From: a virus
Strand: one strand, 5' to 3'
DNA length: 23,879 bases
IMG/VR virus record: IMGVR_UViG_3300027746_000094
Location: 1-23,879 of that record
The translations under genes and the position numbers were made by a program. This document shows, in pieces, positions 3,972-11,715 of this stretch (positions are counted from its first letter, which is position 1; the number at the start of each line of letters is the position of its first letter). The notes beneath the pieces are model-generated. The model worked only from the letters and a program-made list of their open reading frames with translations. It had not been told where the DNA came from and did no database searches.

Positions 3972-4796
3972 TTATCCTAAAAATGCACCAAAACCGCCAC
4001 CTGATGAATAACCACCTGAATAGCCTGGAACAGTTCCTCTTTGATTTAAAAGACCGCTTAAAGCATACATATTACCTGCATTTTGTAATCCGCCTGAATA
4101 AGCATTTGCTGCGCCTACAGTTCCTGCTGCTCTAGCATTTGATCCACCAACATCTAAATTAGCAACATTAGTTCCATAATTAGAAGCGTTAGCTCCTGTT
4201 TGATTTGTTGCTGTTTGACCAATACCTGAAATACCAGCTAATGTATTGTAAATGTTGCCACGTTGATTTTGAAAATTATTAAATGCGTTTTGATACGCAT
4301 TGCCTGCAAAAAGTTGATTGTAGTCTATTAAACCTTTTTGAGCATTTCCACCAACTAAACCGCCTGTAGCGTTAAATAAATTTCTAGTTGCGCCTTCGCC
4401 TTGCTCTCGTTGAAAATTATAATTAGGTGATAAATAATTATTTAAATCTAAATTGCTAAATTCTCTAGTAAGATAACCTGATCCTGTGCCTGTTCCAATT
4501 GGCTTGCCTTCTGCGTCATATTTAGTGTATTCACCAGGAAGCATTGATCCAATTGTATTTAAAGAACTATAGCCTGCACCTCTAAATGGAGCTTGTTGTT
4601 TGTTTTGTATTTCAAATATTCGTCTTTGTTCAGCCATTTGTCTATCGGCTGCGTCTGATTGCATCTGTGCTGCATCTTCGGCTGCATTTCCGCTTATAGC
4701 ACTTCCAATTAAAGAGCCTCCTACGGCAATTGCAGCTGAAAACGGATCGTTATAGCCTGGATGTTTGAGAATACCTATAAATCTTGGATTAAACAT
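3972..4796 (-). CDS. Putative DNA-transfer/ejection protein, P22 gp7 position
   Basis: A 274-residue protein of a type frequent in short-tailed phages and often annotated as a DNA transfer protein. Residues about 18-40 form a Gly/Ala/Ile-rich hydrophobic helix (AAIAVGGSLIGSAISGNAAE). A helical segment, DAADRQMAEQRRIFEIQNK (about 48-66), and QQAPFRGAGYSSLN follow. This order (glycine-zipper-like hydrophobic helix, then Asp/Gln-rich helix, then APFR-x-AG) is characteristic of the family as I know it. The C-terminal half is Asn/Gly/Ala-rich and ends in a Gly/Ser tail, GGYSSGGGFGAFLG. The gene overlaps the upstream GNAT-like gene by 8 bases, with AGGTG as a plausible ribosome site. The inferred role is a membrane-interacting internal virion protein ejected before the DNA. 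Confidence 0.6.
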   Translation of the reverse strand: MFNPRFIGILKHPGYNDPFSAAIAVGGSLIGSAISGNAAEDAAQMQSDAADRQMAEQRRIFEIQNKQQAPFRGAGYSSLNTIGSMLPGEYTKYDAEGKPIGTGTGSGYLTREFSNLDLNNYLSPNYNFQREQGEGATRNLFNATGGLVGGNAQKGLIDYNQLFAGNAYQNAFNNFQNQRGNIYNTLAGISGIGQTATNQTGANASNYGTNVANLDVGGSNARAAGTVGAANAYSGGLQNAGNMYALSGLLNQRGTVPGYSGGYSSGGGFGAFLG

Positions 4797-5190
4797 AGTT
4801 GCACCTATCGCATTTTAAATAAAATTTATCTTGATCTTCTTTTTCTATTTCAAAACCAAGACGTTTACAGAACTTTAAACCATTTTTATTGCTTTTCATT
4901 ACAGTTGTAACTGCACAACCATTTATATCTATTAATTTTTTAAGCGTTTCTTTAATATGTTTTCTTATTGAAAACGTAGGTTTTTTGCTATAGCCTACAT
5001 GAAGCTCATTACCTTTTATAATTACAGCGCCTACTACTTCATTGTTTTGGGTTAATTCAACAAACTCCCAATCTTTCATTATTTCTGCATACTGTTCTTC
5101 AGTAATATTTAACTTATTTTTTATAGACAAATATATAGCATTTACAGCTTTACTAGACATTATAGTATGGCACTTTAACTTGTTGGCCAT
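4789..5190 (-). CDS. GNAT-like N-acyltransferase domain protein
   Basis: A 133-residue protein with GNAT-type features: a beta strand pair WEFVELTQNNEVVGAVIIKG (residues 41-60), a helix with SIRKHIKETLKKLI, and the C-terminal block NKNGLKFCKRLGFEIEKED (101-119), which matches GNAT motif B (N-x-x-x-x-x-FY/FC-x-x-LGF). It ends with a CDRC cysteine pair. The classic acetyl-CoA loop (Q/R-x-x-G-x-G/A) is not obvious, so catalytic competence is uncertain. The gene overlaps the upstream 80-aa gene by 38 bases if ATG at 5190 is used; a second ATG at 5160 (MSSKAVNAIY) would shorten the overlap to 8 bases and may be the true start, as neither has a strong ribosome site. Its place inside the tail/ejection module suggests modification or folding of a virion protein, but the substrate is unknown. 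Confidence 0.55.
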   Translation of the reverse strand: MANKLKCHTIMSSKAVNAIYLSIKNKLNITEEQYAEIMKDWEFVELTQNNEVVGAVIIKGNELHVGYSKKPTFSIRKHIKETLKKLIDINGCAVTTVMKSNKNGLKFCKRLGFEIEKEDQDKFYLKCDRCNYV

Positions 5191-5395
5191 TTACTGTCAT
5201 ATTAATAAATCCTGCTGGTTTAGCAGGTAGCGTTGCTGTTCCTGTAGTTGCTGTGGTTGAACTACTAAAATTAAGCAAGTTTAAAAAGAATTGTTGCCAA
5301 GCACGAGTTGGTCTTTTTGATGCAGCATCTAAAAATTCAGTCTGTGGGTATGGATTGGTCTGACTTGATCCATAAATACCATTTCCTGTAGCCAT
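5153..5395 (-). CDS. Small conserved phage structural-module protein (80 aa)
   Basis: An 80-residue protein coupled to the gp10-like gene by a TAATG overlap. The N-terminal half is polar (YPQTEFLDAASKRPTRAWQQ) and leads into an aromatic helix QQFFLNLLNF. The C-terminal half is a small beta-like region ending FINMTVNGQQVKVPYYNV. Endings of the form G-F-I-x-V-T-V-x-G-x-x-V-K-V-P-Y-Y are common in small phage proteins encoded next to tail genes, but I know no experimental role. In P22 the next gene after gp10 is gp26, the tail needle; this protein is much shorter than gp26 (233 residues) and lacks an evident long coiled coil, so equivalence is not supported. It may be a minor tail-tip or assembly factor. 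Confidence 0.6.
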   Translation of the reverse strand: MATGNGIYGSSQTNPYPQTEFLDAASKRPTRAWQQFFLNLLNFSSSTTATTGTATLPAKPAGFINMTVNGQQVKVPYYNV

Positions 5396-7503
5396 TAGTT
5401 TTCACCCTCTGAAGCTTTAAGATTAGACGATATTATAACTGCATTTACAGGGTCTGTAACTACAACCTCAAAAACTCTATCTCTAGACCAACCTAATCTG
5501 CGCCAAATAGCACGATTTTTATATAAACCGACTGCACCAATAGAAGTCCAATGTTCGTTTGACCATGTAGAACCACCGTCATTAGACCAGCGAAGCATAG
5601 CTTGTGGGCTTTGACCTGGATCGGATTGATTACCTACGCCTGGTTGAAACTGAATTTGTAACTCTTCCAAGTATTCACGTTGTAAATCAGTCACAATATG
5701 AGGCGCTCTGCGTAATCTACGAATTTCATTACCATTGTCAGTATAGTTATTAGGATCAAGCAAATAAATAATGCCGTTATCAAAATCGCCCACATAAACT
5801 TTACCATTAAATACAGCGCAACAATTGCCACGATGTCTATGATAAGTATTAGTGGTATCAATAGATAACCATTTATGCCACATACCTGTAGATACGTCAT
5901 ATACCCATGTTAAATCTAATGTAGGAAATGAAACAACATAACATTCGTGGCCTTCTTGTTGATAAGTCCATGAAATAGCGTCATCAATATATTGATTTAA
6001 TAATGTTTGTTCTACAGCGTGAGTAGATATGCGAGTTGGCACATAACCATTCATCATCATAATTTGAGCTTGACCACGATTATTTCTAGATACATAAGCA
6101 AAAGAATTACCTAATCGTGCTACAGAAAATTTAGCTGCAATACCATGTTGAGTTGATGTGCCTGGTATTCTTTGAAAAGGAAAAGGAAATGATCCAACGT
6201 CAACCCATACTTCAGATGAAGTTTCACCAAGACAATATACTTCACGATGATCTACAATTAAAGATACAAGATTATCAGGTGCGCCATCTTTAGATGAAAA
6301 ACTTAAAGCAGGTGTAATTGGGCTTAATGGATTAGAAGCAGCCCATTGTTGTGAGTTAGGTCTGTTGTAAACAAAATAATTATCTACAATGTCAACAGTA
6401 TTGCCACCTGAAAACGCACCATCAGTAGAAGGTAAAGTAGTAAAGTTTAACGCATACATTGTTCTTGACGTTACAGTTTGAGATGCGCTTATAGGATATG
6501 TTCCTGTTGAGCCTGAACCTGTGCCAAACGTTAATGTAAGTTTTAATCCTGTTCCAGCGCCACTTGATGAAGTAGATACATCGTTAGTAGGCTGGGAAGT
6601 ATAAGAGCCAGCGTTAGTTAAAGTTAATCCTGTAACCACGCCAGCTGATACAGATGAAACGGTATAGGTTGCAGGCGTTGTTCCGTAAACGCCACCTAAT
6701 ACGGTTACAGTATCGTTGACTGCATATCCTGATCCACCTGCTGCAATAGTTTGACTTAACACAGATGAATTACCTAAAGCAGTAATAATTGTGTTAGCTG
6801 AAACAGTAGAACCTTGAATAGTTTGACCTGGATACAATGTGCCTGAACTAGCTGTTACAGTCATTGTAGTGCCTGACATTGAAGCGGTTAATACTGAAGC
6901 CACAGCAGCAGAATTCATTAATGTAGAAGCTACTGTTTGGCTTTGATTAATGGTGTATGTTCCAACGCCACCTGTGCCTGTGCCTAAAGCTGTGATTACA
7001 GTTGCACTAGTAACGCCTAAACCAAATAAAGCCTGGCTAATAGCTATTGTGCCTGACGTGACTGCGGTTACAGTTAAAGTTGTTCCTGAAATAGAACCTG
7101 TAAATAAAGCAGCGGAAGGTGTAGAAATGCGCCATGTATAACGATATGATCCGTCAACAATATAAACATTTAATCCATTATCAGTAATACCTACTCGGCC
7201 TGTTGCAGTATTTAATTGACCTATTAATGTAGGTGTTAAAGTAGAAGTTAAAACATATACATAAGGGCCAACAACTGCCACCATGTATGATCCACCTGAT
7301 ACGGTTCGCATACCACGAACTTCTTGTTTGTTTTGAAATACAACTGATGATGTAAGACCAGGCGTTGGATATAAAGCTACAACACCTCTTGAACCTTCAG
7401 GTTTTAATGGGTCAATTTCAGGGCGAAAGTTAATGCACTCTTGGCCATCTTGATAAATGGAAGGTGCTTCATAACTAGGGCCTACAAAGCCAAAATCTGC
7501 CAT
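5395..7503 (-). CDS. Packaged-DNA stabilisation / tail hub protein, P22 gp10-like, with inserted beta modules
   Basis: A 702-residue homologue of the P22 gp10 family, which closes the portal channel and binds the spikes. The N-terminus ([21 protein letters not shown] type, residues 8-28, then YPTPGL) and the C-terminal two thirds (residues about 355-700, including [27 protein letters not shown], and WHKWLS) fit this propeller-like family. P22 gp10 is about 470 residues; the excess is explained by an insertion at about 132-350. That insertion holds one complete Thr/Ser/Gly beta module (132-196) and a second one (203-243 plus 328-350) itself split by another module rich in GGSGY and NAGSYT (249-327). 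Removing it leaves about 480 residues. The gene is joined to the gp4-like gene upstream and the 80-aa gene downstream by TAATG overlaps, matching P22 gene order. Confidence 0.85.
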
Positions 7504-8492
7504 TATCTAAAGAATCCGCCTGTTAATATCCAACCAGCGTCTTTTTGACGGCTAGATAGTAAAGCATCGTTAAACCTTGCAGATTGCATAGGTTTCATGT
7601 TAGTGCGTTTTAAGGTAGCTTTACCTTGTGCAGCAAACGCCACAATCATCGCTATTTGCGTTTGTGAGGCTTTGCCATACATAGGCATCAATCTTTCGGC
7701 TAAACACCAACGTAGCGCCATAGAATAGCCTTGTGGAAGGTTTATATCGTCATTAAGTGAAGCGTAGTTTCTAAACAGTGTTTGAGCAAACATGTGGATT
7801 TCACCCTGTGCAGGATTAGGCCATACAAAAACATTACCTGAATCAGAATTGGGATTGAAATATAAAGCTTTTGGCCATGGGCCATTTAAAGTTTTTAATC
7901 CAATCATGTTGTAATCATCTAAAGCTAAAATAGCTATTGGATAATCTAAACCACCATTTACAATAGGTTGACCGTTAGAAGTTGTGTTAATACGAACATA
8001 AGCAGAATCAATGCCAAGAGGCTTTTGATAGTAAGCTTGAATAAGGGTAGATGCTACAGGGCTTGCATAAGTAGTATTAAGTATATATGTGCCTGCATAA
8101 TTTACATTACCACCTGCACCTGTTAATTCATCTAAAATTTTAGTGCCGTCAGTAATGCCTGTGCCACTTAACGTTTGACCTTGAGCAACTGCGCCTGACG
8201 TAATACCTGTAACTGTTAAAATGTTACCTGTAATTGATCCTGTAAATTGTGCGCCAATAAAATTAGGTGATGCGTGATAAGGGCCAATAGTGTATTGAGT
8301 TTGTCCTGCAATAACAGGCCATATAATTTCAGTTGTGTTAAAGACAATCATGTCCTCATTTGACCATTGGTCAATAAGGTCGTTAAGCATATCAAAAGCG
8401 TCTTGAGCTTCTTCAGGTGTTGGAGTTTCACCTGATGCTAATGCACCGATGTCTTTTAAAGCTCTTGATATAATGTCTATTGGCTTTGGCAT
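7503..8492 (-). CDS. Tail accessory factor / head completion protein, P22 gp4-like, with inserted beta module
   Basis: A 329-residue homologue of P22 gp4, which binds beneath the portal ring and receives gp10. The N-terminal signature is clear: a helix with [20 protein letters not shown] (10-29), then a [13 protein letters not shown] helix (34-46) and a strand preceding [10 protein letters not shown] (62-71). Later regions include GIDSAYVRI and a C-terminal helical part with [13 protein letters not shown] (261-273). An extra Thr/Ser/Gly beta module (residues about 82-151; [20 protein letters not shown] and a terminal SPVASTL) is inserted just after the YTIGP strand and resembles the modules inserted in the adjacent gp10-like protein. 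Without it the protein is near 257 residues. The start follows AGGAT at suitable spacing. Confidence 0.85.
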
Positions 8493-9192: not shown

Positions 9193-11715
9193 TTAAGCTG
9201 TATAAGTTCCTGAAGCTGTATAAGTTAATATAGTGTTTGCACCTGATGTTGTTACAGTTGGTGATCCTGTTGTAGTCCCTGAGTATCTAACAGTAGGAAC
9301 AGATAATATTATCACACCTGATCCGCCAGCTGCACCATTTGTGCCAGCACCACCGCCTCCAGCACCACCGCCACCACCACCTGTATTTGCAGTTCCAGCT
9401 ACAGCAGGAGCGCCTCCTGCACCGCCACCGCCTGCACCACCAGCACCATTATTTACTCCACTATGGCCACCACCACCGCCACCAGCATAAGTAACTGAAG
9501 TCCCTGTAATTGAAGATGCAGAGCCTGCACCACCTGCTCCACCTTGAGTTGTTGAAGGTGCTGTTTGTCCAACTGCACTAGCTCCACCACCGCCACCACC
9601 AACAGCAGTGCCAGGCCCACCAAATCCACTACCACCTGCAAAACCTTGACCTGATGTTCCAGCACCACCACTTTGAGTAGTTATTGTGCTTCCTCCGCCA
9701 CCGCCACCAGAGCCACCTGTTCCACCAACAGCACCAATATTACCTCCTGCACCGCCACCTGTTGAAGTAACAGTAGTTATTCCTGTGCCTGATAAAACAG
9801 AATTTACACCTTGTGTATTAGATGCTCCACCTGAGCCAATTGTTACAGTATAAGAAGTTCCAATACTTAAAAATGCAGATGAAGTTAATAACCCACCAGC
9901 ACCACCACCGCCACCATAGCCTGTATTACCTCCACCACCACCTCCTGCAACAACTAAATATGTTGCAGAATAAACAGGAGTTAAACTTCCACTTGCAGTA
10001 AATGTATGTATTGTGTTTCCGCCTGATGATGTTACAGTTCCGCCTGTAAATACTTGTGAGCCAGCGTATGAGATGATAACTGTTCCGCTACCACCTGCAC
10101 CACCAGCATAAGAACCATTTGTTGATACATTTAAATGGCCACAACCACCACCACCGCCACCTAAATTAGCTGTTCCAGCAATCCCTGTTGCATTACCTCT
10201 TGCATCACCACCACCGCCAGTTCCGCCAGTTCCTTGATTAGTTGCTCCACTTCCATAAGCAGCACCACCGCCTCCACCTGCATAGGTTACACTAGAGCCT
10301 GAAATAGAAGAGGCAGTTCCTGCACCACCATTACCTCCAGCACTTCCTGAACCATTACCACCTACAGCTCCTGCACCGCCACCGCCGCCTGAACCATAAT
10401 TAGGAGAGGTATCTGCTCCAGTTCCTCCACTATTTCCATAAGAAGTAAAACCAGTATAAGAACTTTGATTTGATGTGCCTGCGTTAGAAAAATAATTACC
10501 GCCGCCTCCGCCTGAACCACCATTTGTTGCATCAGTGGGATACACACCGCCACCACCACCGCCATTTGCAGTAACAGTAGTTAAACCTGTGCCTGATAAA
10601 ACTGAATTAGAACCTGTGCTTCCAACGGCTTGTGAACCAGCTCCACCACCATTACCACCTGCACCAACAGTTACTGTATATGTAGCAGGATAATAAAGTG
10701 TAGTAGAACCTATAACTAACCCACCAGCTCCACCTCCGCCAGTTGACCTACCAGTTGTAGCAGCATTAGTATTTCCACCACCACCGCCACCACCACCTGC
10801 AATTAAAACTGATGCTGTAACTGCTGTAGCAGGAGTTAATGTTCCTGTAGATGTGAATGTATGAATTTGGTTACCACCTGAAGTAGTAATTGTGCCACCT
10901 ATGAATTTAGGTGTAGCAGATGTGTAAGATATGATGACTATGCCTGAACCACCAGCAGAACCATTACCATTTGCACCGCCTGCGGTAACTCCTCCTCCAC
11001 CACCGCCTCCACCTGTGTTTGCTGTTGCATTTGAAGTATTAACAGCTCCTGTTCCTCCGCCTGCACCGCCACCTGATCCTCCTGAAGAAGCTGTGCCACT
11101 TGGTCTTAAACCACCACCACCACCACCTGCATAAGTTACTGATGATCCACTAATTGATGAAGCAGATCCTGCACCACCGTTACCACCTTGTGTGCCTCCA
11201 GCATTAGTATTTGCACCAACAGCAGAAGCTCCTCCACCGCCACCGCCTGCACCATTACTTGCTGATGTAGTTTGAAAACCGTTACCGCCAGCACTACCTT
11301 GACCTGAAGTTCCTGAAGCTCCGCTTGTATATGGCCCTGACATACCACCACCACCGCCCGAACCTCCTGAAGCAGGAGCAGAACCACTACCATTACTTCC
11401 TGAACCACCTCCTGTAGAAGTGACAGTAGATAAACCTGTGCCTGAAATTACTGAATTTGTTCCACTAGTTTCACCACTACCATTGTATGCGCCTCCATTT
11501 CCTCCTGCACCAACGGTTATTGTATAAGTATTAAGAGTTGATAATGTAAAAGTAGAAGTTAAATAACCACCTGCTCCACCACCTCCACCACCTGTGCCAC
11601 CGCCACCACCACCTCCTGCTACAGAAAGATAGGATGCAGCTACATTGTTAGGATTAGACGATAAAATACCATAAGCTCTTGCTGCTTGAACGGCTAGTCT
11701 TGACAATAATGACAT
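9193..11715 (-). CDS. Large glycine-rich repeat protein, putative fibre/adhesin
   Basis: An 840-residue protein with very high Gly, Ser, Thr and Ala content. After a short N-terminal helix (MSLLSRLAVQAARAYGILSS) it consists of three tandem modules, about residues 28-297, 301-580 and 583-840. Each opens with a hydrophobic strand (YLSVAGGGG, SVLIAGGGG, TYLVVAGGGG), contains a TYT-I/V-TVG-A/S-GG strand, a G-T/S-ASSI-S/T-G-S/T-SVTYAGG block near 182, 465 and 730, and a Gly-run bundle. The first two modules end in G-x-VIISY plus GG-N-x-IHTFT-x-x-G-x-LTP, the third in a divergent version ending TYTASGTYTA. Long Gly runs separated by hydrophobic tips resemble glycine-rich phage adhesins that pack as polyglycine-II helices, and many phages carry proteins annotated simply as glycine-rich. 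The likely role is host recognition or a fibre; no receptor can be inferred. A GTAGGA ribosome site precedes the start. Confidence 0.75.
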   Translation of the reverse strand: MSLLSRLAVQAARAYGILSSNPNNVAASYLSVAGGGGGGGTGGGGGGAGGYLTSTFTLSTLNTYTITVGAGGNGGAYNGSGETSGTNSVISGTGLSTVTSTGGGSGSNGSGSAPASGGSGGGGGMSGPYTSGASGTSGQGSAGGNGFQTTSASNGAGGGGGGASAVGANTNAGGTQGGNGGAGSASSISGSSVTYAGGGGGGLRPSGTASSGGSGGGAGGGTGAVNTSNATANTGGGGGGGGVTAGGANGNGSAGGSGIVIISYTSATPKFIGGTITTSGGNQIHTFTSTGTLTPATAVTASVLIAGGGGGGGGNTNAATTGRSTGGGGAGGLVIGSTTLYYPATYTVTVGAGGNGGGAGSQAVGSTGSNSVLSGTGLTTVTANGGGGGGVYPTDATNGGSGGGGGNYFSNAGTSNQSSYTGFTSYGNSGGTGADTSPNYGSGGGGGAGAVGGNGSGSAGGNGGAGTASSISGSSVTYAGGGGGAAYGSGATNQGTGGTGGGGDARGNATGIAGTANLGGGGGGCGHLNVSTNGSYAGGAGGSGTVIISYAGSQVFTGGTVTSSGGNTIHTFTASGSLTPVYSATYLVVAGGGGGGNTGYGGGGGAGGLLTSSAFLSIGTSYTVTIGSGGASNTQGVNSVLSGTGITTVTSTGGGAGGNIGAVGGTGGSGGGGGGSTITTQSGGAGTSGQGFAGGSGFGGPGTAVGGGGGGASAVGQTAPSTTQGGAGGAGSASSITGTSVTYAGGGGGGHSGVNNGAGGAGGGGAGGAPAVAGTANTGGGGGGAGGGGAGTNGAAGGSGVIILSVPTVRYSGTTTGSPTVTTSGANTILTYTASGTYTA

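Follow-up and report, generated by a model that had tools for sequence, protein, structure and literature searches.

The Tail Hub Gene and Its Genomic Context

The window, by which we mean the whole stretch of DNA that was analyzed (23.9 kb), is the record of an uncultured phage, in which the portal, coat, adaptor, hub, and ejection genes are located on the minus strand in a P22/Pam1-like order. The coordinates of the features described here are given in Table 1. The 702-aa hub ORF yielded a family match over the core to PHROG 578 (head closure Hc3) with an E-value of 1e-102, and by sequence it matched the gp10-type PDB chains 7eeq and 9vyg (E ~1e-15 to 1e-16), which represent the solved Pam1 and Pan3 hub proteins. 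A Foldseek search with the AlphaFold (AF2) model of the 702-aa protein revealed P22 gp10 (8u10, E 2e-16; 8eap), Pan3, Sf6 gp8, and Pam1 as best folds (chains 9vyg, 7sg7, and 7eeq). On the basis of sequence and model, the protein is predicted to be a P22 gp10/Hc3-type tail hub with a propeller fold. The adaptor–hub gene order agrees with a hexameric ring below the adaptor, whereby the prediction made here is that of a monomer. Two further ORFs on the minus strand of the window were noted. One of them (9193–11715) encodes a glycine-rich protein of 840 aa, in which three Gly_rich_2 stretches were recognized (Pfam E 1.5e-52), and the other one (4789–5190, 133 aa) lies close to where an acetyltransferase is annotated in the tail cluster of related phages (PBR31, Pam1).

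Table 1. Features of the tail hub gene and the adjacent adaptor gene in the window.
Feature	Residues	Position	Strand	Evidence
Tail hub/head-closure Hc3 (P22 gp10-like) protein, 702 aa (predicted)		5395..7503	-	PHROG, PDB, and AF2 fold matches
N-terminal part of hub core	1–126	7126..7503	-	Alignment with insert-less homologs L083/L084
Module A1	129–201	6901..7119	-	Homology to A2; model; 42-member alignment
Module A2, first half	202–244	6772..6900	-	Homology to A1; relatives with uninterrupted A2
Inner module B	246–326	6526..6768	-	Absent from A-A relatives; 35-member alignment; model
Module A2, second half	327–352	6448..6525	-	Homology to A1; relatives with uninterrupted A2
C-terminal part of hub core	353–702	5398..6447	-	PDB sequence matches; insert-less homologs; P22 gp10
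Module A copy in adaptor (ORF 7503–8492, SU10-adaptor-like)	~77–153	8034..8264	-	z = 13.5 to A1; tblastn E 6e-10

A Second Beta Module Is Split by a Different Module

The propeller of the hub is broken by about 227 extra residues (~126–352), which comprise a module A1 followed by a module A2 that is split by a module B; residues 132–351 of the hub are encoded by positions 6453–7110 on the minus strand. The initial annotation had described a complete module at residues 132–196 and a second copy from about residue 203, which breaks off near 245 and is resumed at about 328, with an unrelated segment in between. This outline holds with slightly shifted borders: A1 extends over ~129–201, A2 starts at ~202 (with SMSGTT from residue 208), breaks off after ITALG at residue 244, and picks up again at 327, and the segment in between (~246–326) is B. 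With its ~80 residues, B sits in the A2 loop that matches A1 residues ~173–181, before the last strand of A2. Smith–Waterman alignment of A1 with the rejoined A2 gave a score of 151, compared to a mean of 47 and a maximum of 73 for composition-preserving shuffles (z = 14), and each A2 half matched A1 separately (z = 10.2 and 9.6). The comparison of A1 with B, which is of similar composition, yielded a z of 0.2. Thus, the A1–A2 match is not explained by common composition, and B is indeed unrelated to the module that surrounds it. The module alignments comprised 42 members for the A1 family and 35 members for the B family.

Modeled alone with AF2, the insert reached a pLDDT of 93.0, whereas the full-length hub model was weaker (pLDDT 77, with residues 1–46 and 596–611 below 50). 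In the model, A1 has beta strands of ~20 residues (132–151 and 181–200) with short strands between them, and A2 has long strands at 203–219 and 334–351, between which B is predicted to fold. The insert is placed between the blade strands 120–125 and 354–357, at a propeller hairpin, and residues 132–351 are modeled as separate long-stranded domains rather than as an integral part of the propeller core. The proposed nest, in which a second beta module is split by a different one, is therefore supported by the sequence, by the empty sites in relatives, and by a confident structure model.

Relatives With and Without Each Layer

Insert-free gp10 homologs were found in L083, L084, L085, L086, and L087, whereby L083 (MW202674, 489 aa) is 64% identical to the window hub over the aligned parts. 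At least 53 distinct ORFs show the arrangement A-A without B (IMG/VR counts stem from query-biased searches and represent minimum numbers, not prevalences). The window hub is of the type A-A[B], and L099 and L267 are of the type A-A[B[X]], in which B is split after GV by a further segment of roughly 80–90 residues and resumes at VTSL/VTGL. A 24-residue stretch of L104 runs uninterrupted through A2 exactly where the window hub, with 14 and 23 residues flanking, has B. In L019, it is A1 that is interrupted, and the loop concerned is the one occupied by B in A2. Several architectures are thus found at this hot-spot loop, of which the nest is one, and two relatives add a further level to it. The lengths of the homologs vary widely, from 446–531 residues for the insert-free ones (open frames with untrimmed starts) to about 835 residues with insert. 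Different long inserts are present in the hub ORFs of L249 and L135, where they lie in the N-terminal part of A2 in a loop other than that of B.

When the A2 modules of B-containing proteins were compared, the nearest other class was that of the B-lacking A2 modules in 63 of 65 cases; A2 thus represents one and the same module, whether or not it contains B. In a core-only tree of 127 proteins, the presence of B switches state 3 times, compared to a mean of 37 times with shuffled labels; a B-lacking clade lies between B-containing ones, and the three switches are unpolarized as gain or loss. The DNA at the borders of B was compared for short repeats, which revealed a short Gly-Thr-Gly-type repeat that is only suggestive since the loop is Gly-rich anyway. 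With more than 100 distinct ORFs from a large number of metagenomes showing this arrangement, a chimeric assembly was rejected. The relative L311 (contig QVQD01000042.1) likewise combines an A-A[B] hub with an A-bearing adaptor; its MAG is labeled as Methylococcales, which might be a hint on the host or the result of mis-binning.

Mean pairwise identity was 0.61–0.66 for the insert compared to 0.74 for the core, and median pairwise dN/dS was ~0.19–0.22 compared to 0.13. Purifying selection thus acts on the insert, albeit less strictly than on the core, so that the insert has been retained while evolving at a higher rate.

Module A Occurs in Several Unrelated Virion Proteins

The adaptor gene next to the hub gene carries an A insert as well, and the part of its product after this insert matches the Pfam family SU10_adaptor. 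Among the adaptor ORFs detected in the examined loci, 172 of 182 contain A, ten of them in two copies (e.g., L045, L060, and L068). The ten adaptor ORFs without A are mostly fragments; the adaptors of L085 and L086 lack A. In L083 and L084, A is present in the adaptor and absent from the hub. A scan of bacterial genomes led to the identification of A in nine diverse contigs, including sheath-like, DUF3383, and GDSL-esterase proteins. In one phylum, 398 genomes were sampled, and 4 of these contained A. Two baseplate J-like proteins, from L319 (751–2214) and L324 (361–1797), are 53% identical over 404 aligned residues and bear A at different positions, each of which is empty in the other protein. 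In a fold search, the insert matched an HK97-type capsid protein over 68 columns with 54% identity, and PHROGs 21413 and 38233 contain A. Overall, A occurs in adaptor, hub, baseplate J, sheath, esterase, and, by fold, capsid proteins, i.e., in several unrelated virion proteins.

One Rhizobium prophage harbors multiple copies of A, for which a recent duplication was rejected, as the copies are only 41–58% identical. Searching the phage collection by tblastn with A or B alone gave no match, for which the low-complexity filter is a possible cause. Among the Pfam and NCBIfam families, none reached the cut-off for A or B, including families of the Ig/BIg type. A phosphodiesterase-like protein from a Verrucomicrobia MAG (L314, 631–3717) contains two A modules, and the distribution of A may therefore extend beyond phage virion genes. 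It is conceivable, even if we are inclined to doubt it, that A serves as a plug-in domain, which is transferred between virion genes as a unit and whose own loop is the landing site of the next module, so that arms would grow outward recursively.

Module B and Its Similarities to Database Entries

For the inner module, the initial annotation had suggested a search for stand-alone inserts in other phage proteins. Here the outcome was negative: close sequence searches found no copy of B outside gp10/hub homologs, and the idea that B moves as a stand-alone insert through other proteins was dropped, as its close copies are confined to gp10 homologs. B showed weak matches to PHROG head-decoration and Hc2 families. 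A profile comparison of B with domain I of T4 gp18 was likewise weak (E 0.07 over 20 residues), and so were the matches to Pfam Gp18_dom_I in 9 of the 35 B members (best E 0.0026). With Foldseek, the whole insert matched the T4 sheath protein gp18 with a probability of 0.98 but an E-value of 0.31, which is the best E-value among the solved structures, followed by a chain of the Arthrobacter phage Bridgette entry (probability 0.98, E 0.91). Thus, no strong match to solved structures was found for A and B (best E 0.31). These weak PHROG, profile, and structure matches suggest that B may have relatives elsewhere. The best fold match of the insert was A0A6J5QB28 (BFVD), an uncultured Caudovirales “Gp10” (probability 1.00, TM 0.56, 221 columns), which is annotated as P22 Gp10 and is itself a database prediction. 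We found no published analysis of the insert.

Proposed Origin and Role of the Insert

At the sequence level, the layers, the empty sites, and the continuity of the reading frame are established, as are the purifying selection on the insert and the distribution of A over several virion genes. Beyond that, we consider it rather probable that a stepwise insertion of modules into surface loops has equipped the tail hub with six arms of a decorative or adhesive kind, whose outward position and function we infer. A P22 gp10-type hub gene would have gained two copies of the promiscuous beta module A at one blade-hairpin loop, B would later have entered the second copy, namely the loop that precedes the last strand, and would in turn have taken in a further module in some relatives. 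In the model, the first and last strands of A are long and appear paired. The two ends of an inserted module would be close together, so that the outer fold could close around it, and this may be the reason why such insertions are tolerated. The insertions themselves may go back to recombination events between phage genes, either illegitimate or guided by short homology, at Gly-rich codons of the loops. Since 6 × 227 extra residues would be hard to place in the DNA channel, we infer that the six arm copies project outward around the tail hub. As accessory surface domains, they might decorate or stabilize the adaptor–hub–spike region and/or bind weakly to cell-surface sugars.

The main rival to these arms is that the A of the adaptor and the A-A[B] of the hub face each other and jointly hold a tail fiber or spike. 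It owes this rank to the facts that adaptor and hub both bear A and that the fiber of T7-like phages sits between adaptor and nozzle docks: in P-SCSP1u, each fiber trimer is fitted between the nozzle fiber dock and the adaptor fiber dock (PMC10575957). Furthermore, wherever A is present in the hub of a relative and the adaptor gene is intact, the adaptor bears A, too. However, the PBR31 and P26218 homologs (L085, L086) have the insert in neither hub nor adaptor, L083 and L084 have A only in the adaptor, and A is also part of capsid, sheath, and esterase proteins, which hold no fiber. The relatives without either insert argue that the insert is not required, and such a joint dock seems fairly unlikely.

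It might also be that recombination-prone modules spread and persist as neutral baggage since they are harmless to the hub, which would fit the presence of A in many unrelated proteins and the faster evolution of the insert. Yet a dN/dS of ~0.2 indicates purifying selection, long open frames have been maintained, and an insert is retained in every intact IMG/VR relative that was found by the C-terminal core query alone, which makes neutrality quite improbable. That the likeness of A1 and A2 merely reflects a Ser/Thr/Gly-rich beta composition, with no homology and no nest, draws on the Ser/Thr/Gly/Val-rich nature of the segment and on the lack of tblastn matches for A or B alone in the phage collection. 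This reading is exceedingly improbable: z = 14 over composition-preserving shuffles, versus z = 0.2 for A1–B, and the homologs with an uninterrupted A2 speak against it, and a compositional or chance match was refuted by the shuffles together with the empty-site alignments.

Under stepwise insertion, the natural series of none, A-A, A-A[B], and A-A[B[X]] would provide readable intermediates of how virus surface proteins gain domains inside one another. The unnamed module A is shared by capsid, neck, sheath, baseplate, and tail genes and shows reciprocally filled and empty sites. Owing to the empty sites, it can be tested in which order the events took place and how far the loop tolerates insertions.

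Comparison With Known Systems

Interrupting and shuffled domains are already known from phage virion proteins (PMC9230969, PMC10684548); a description of the layered series, of module A, or of this insert was not found in the openly accessible literature. P22 gp10, Sf6 gp8, and the Pam1 needle head have the core fold and sequence as well as the gene neighborhood (coat, adaptor, hub) in common with the window hub. P22 gp10 (472 aa) and Pam1 (442 aa), and likewise Sf6 gp8, are without the ~227-residue insert, in line with the absence from the P22 homolog that had been claimed initially. In the T4 sheath protein gp18, long insertions interrupt a conserved core, and those domains that do not belong to the core are remote from the tube (PMC9230969). 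Such an interruption of a conserved core by long insertions is shared by gp18 and the window hub, but the host protein is a different one, and the resemblance of B is too weak to claim homology. According to Fraser et al. (2006), as cited in PMC9230969 and PMC10684548, promiscuous Ig-like domains are small beta domains in many unrelated virion proteins, for which a weak binding to cell-surface carbohydrates has been proposed. Module A resembles them as a small beta domain that is present in many unrelated virion proteins. In contrast to these domains, it reaches the cut-off of no Pfam model, Ig-like or otherwise, is inserted in loops within one reading frame, and can host another module.
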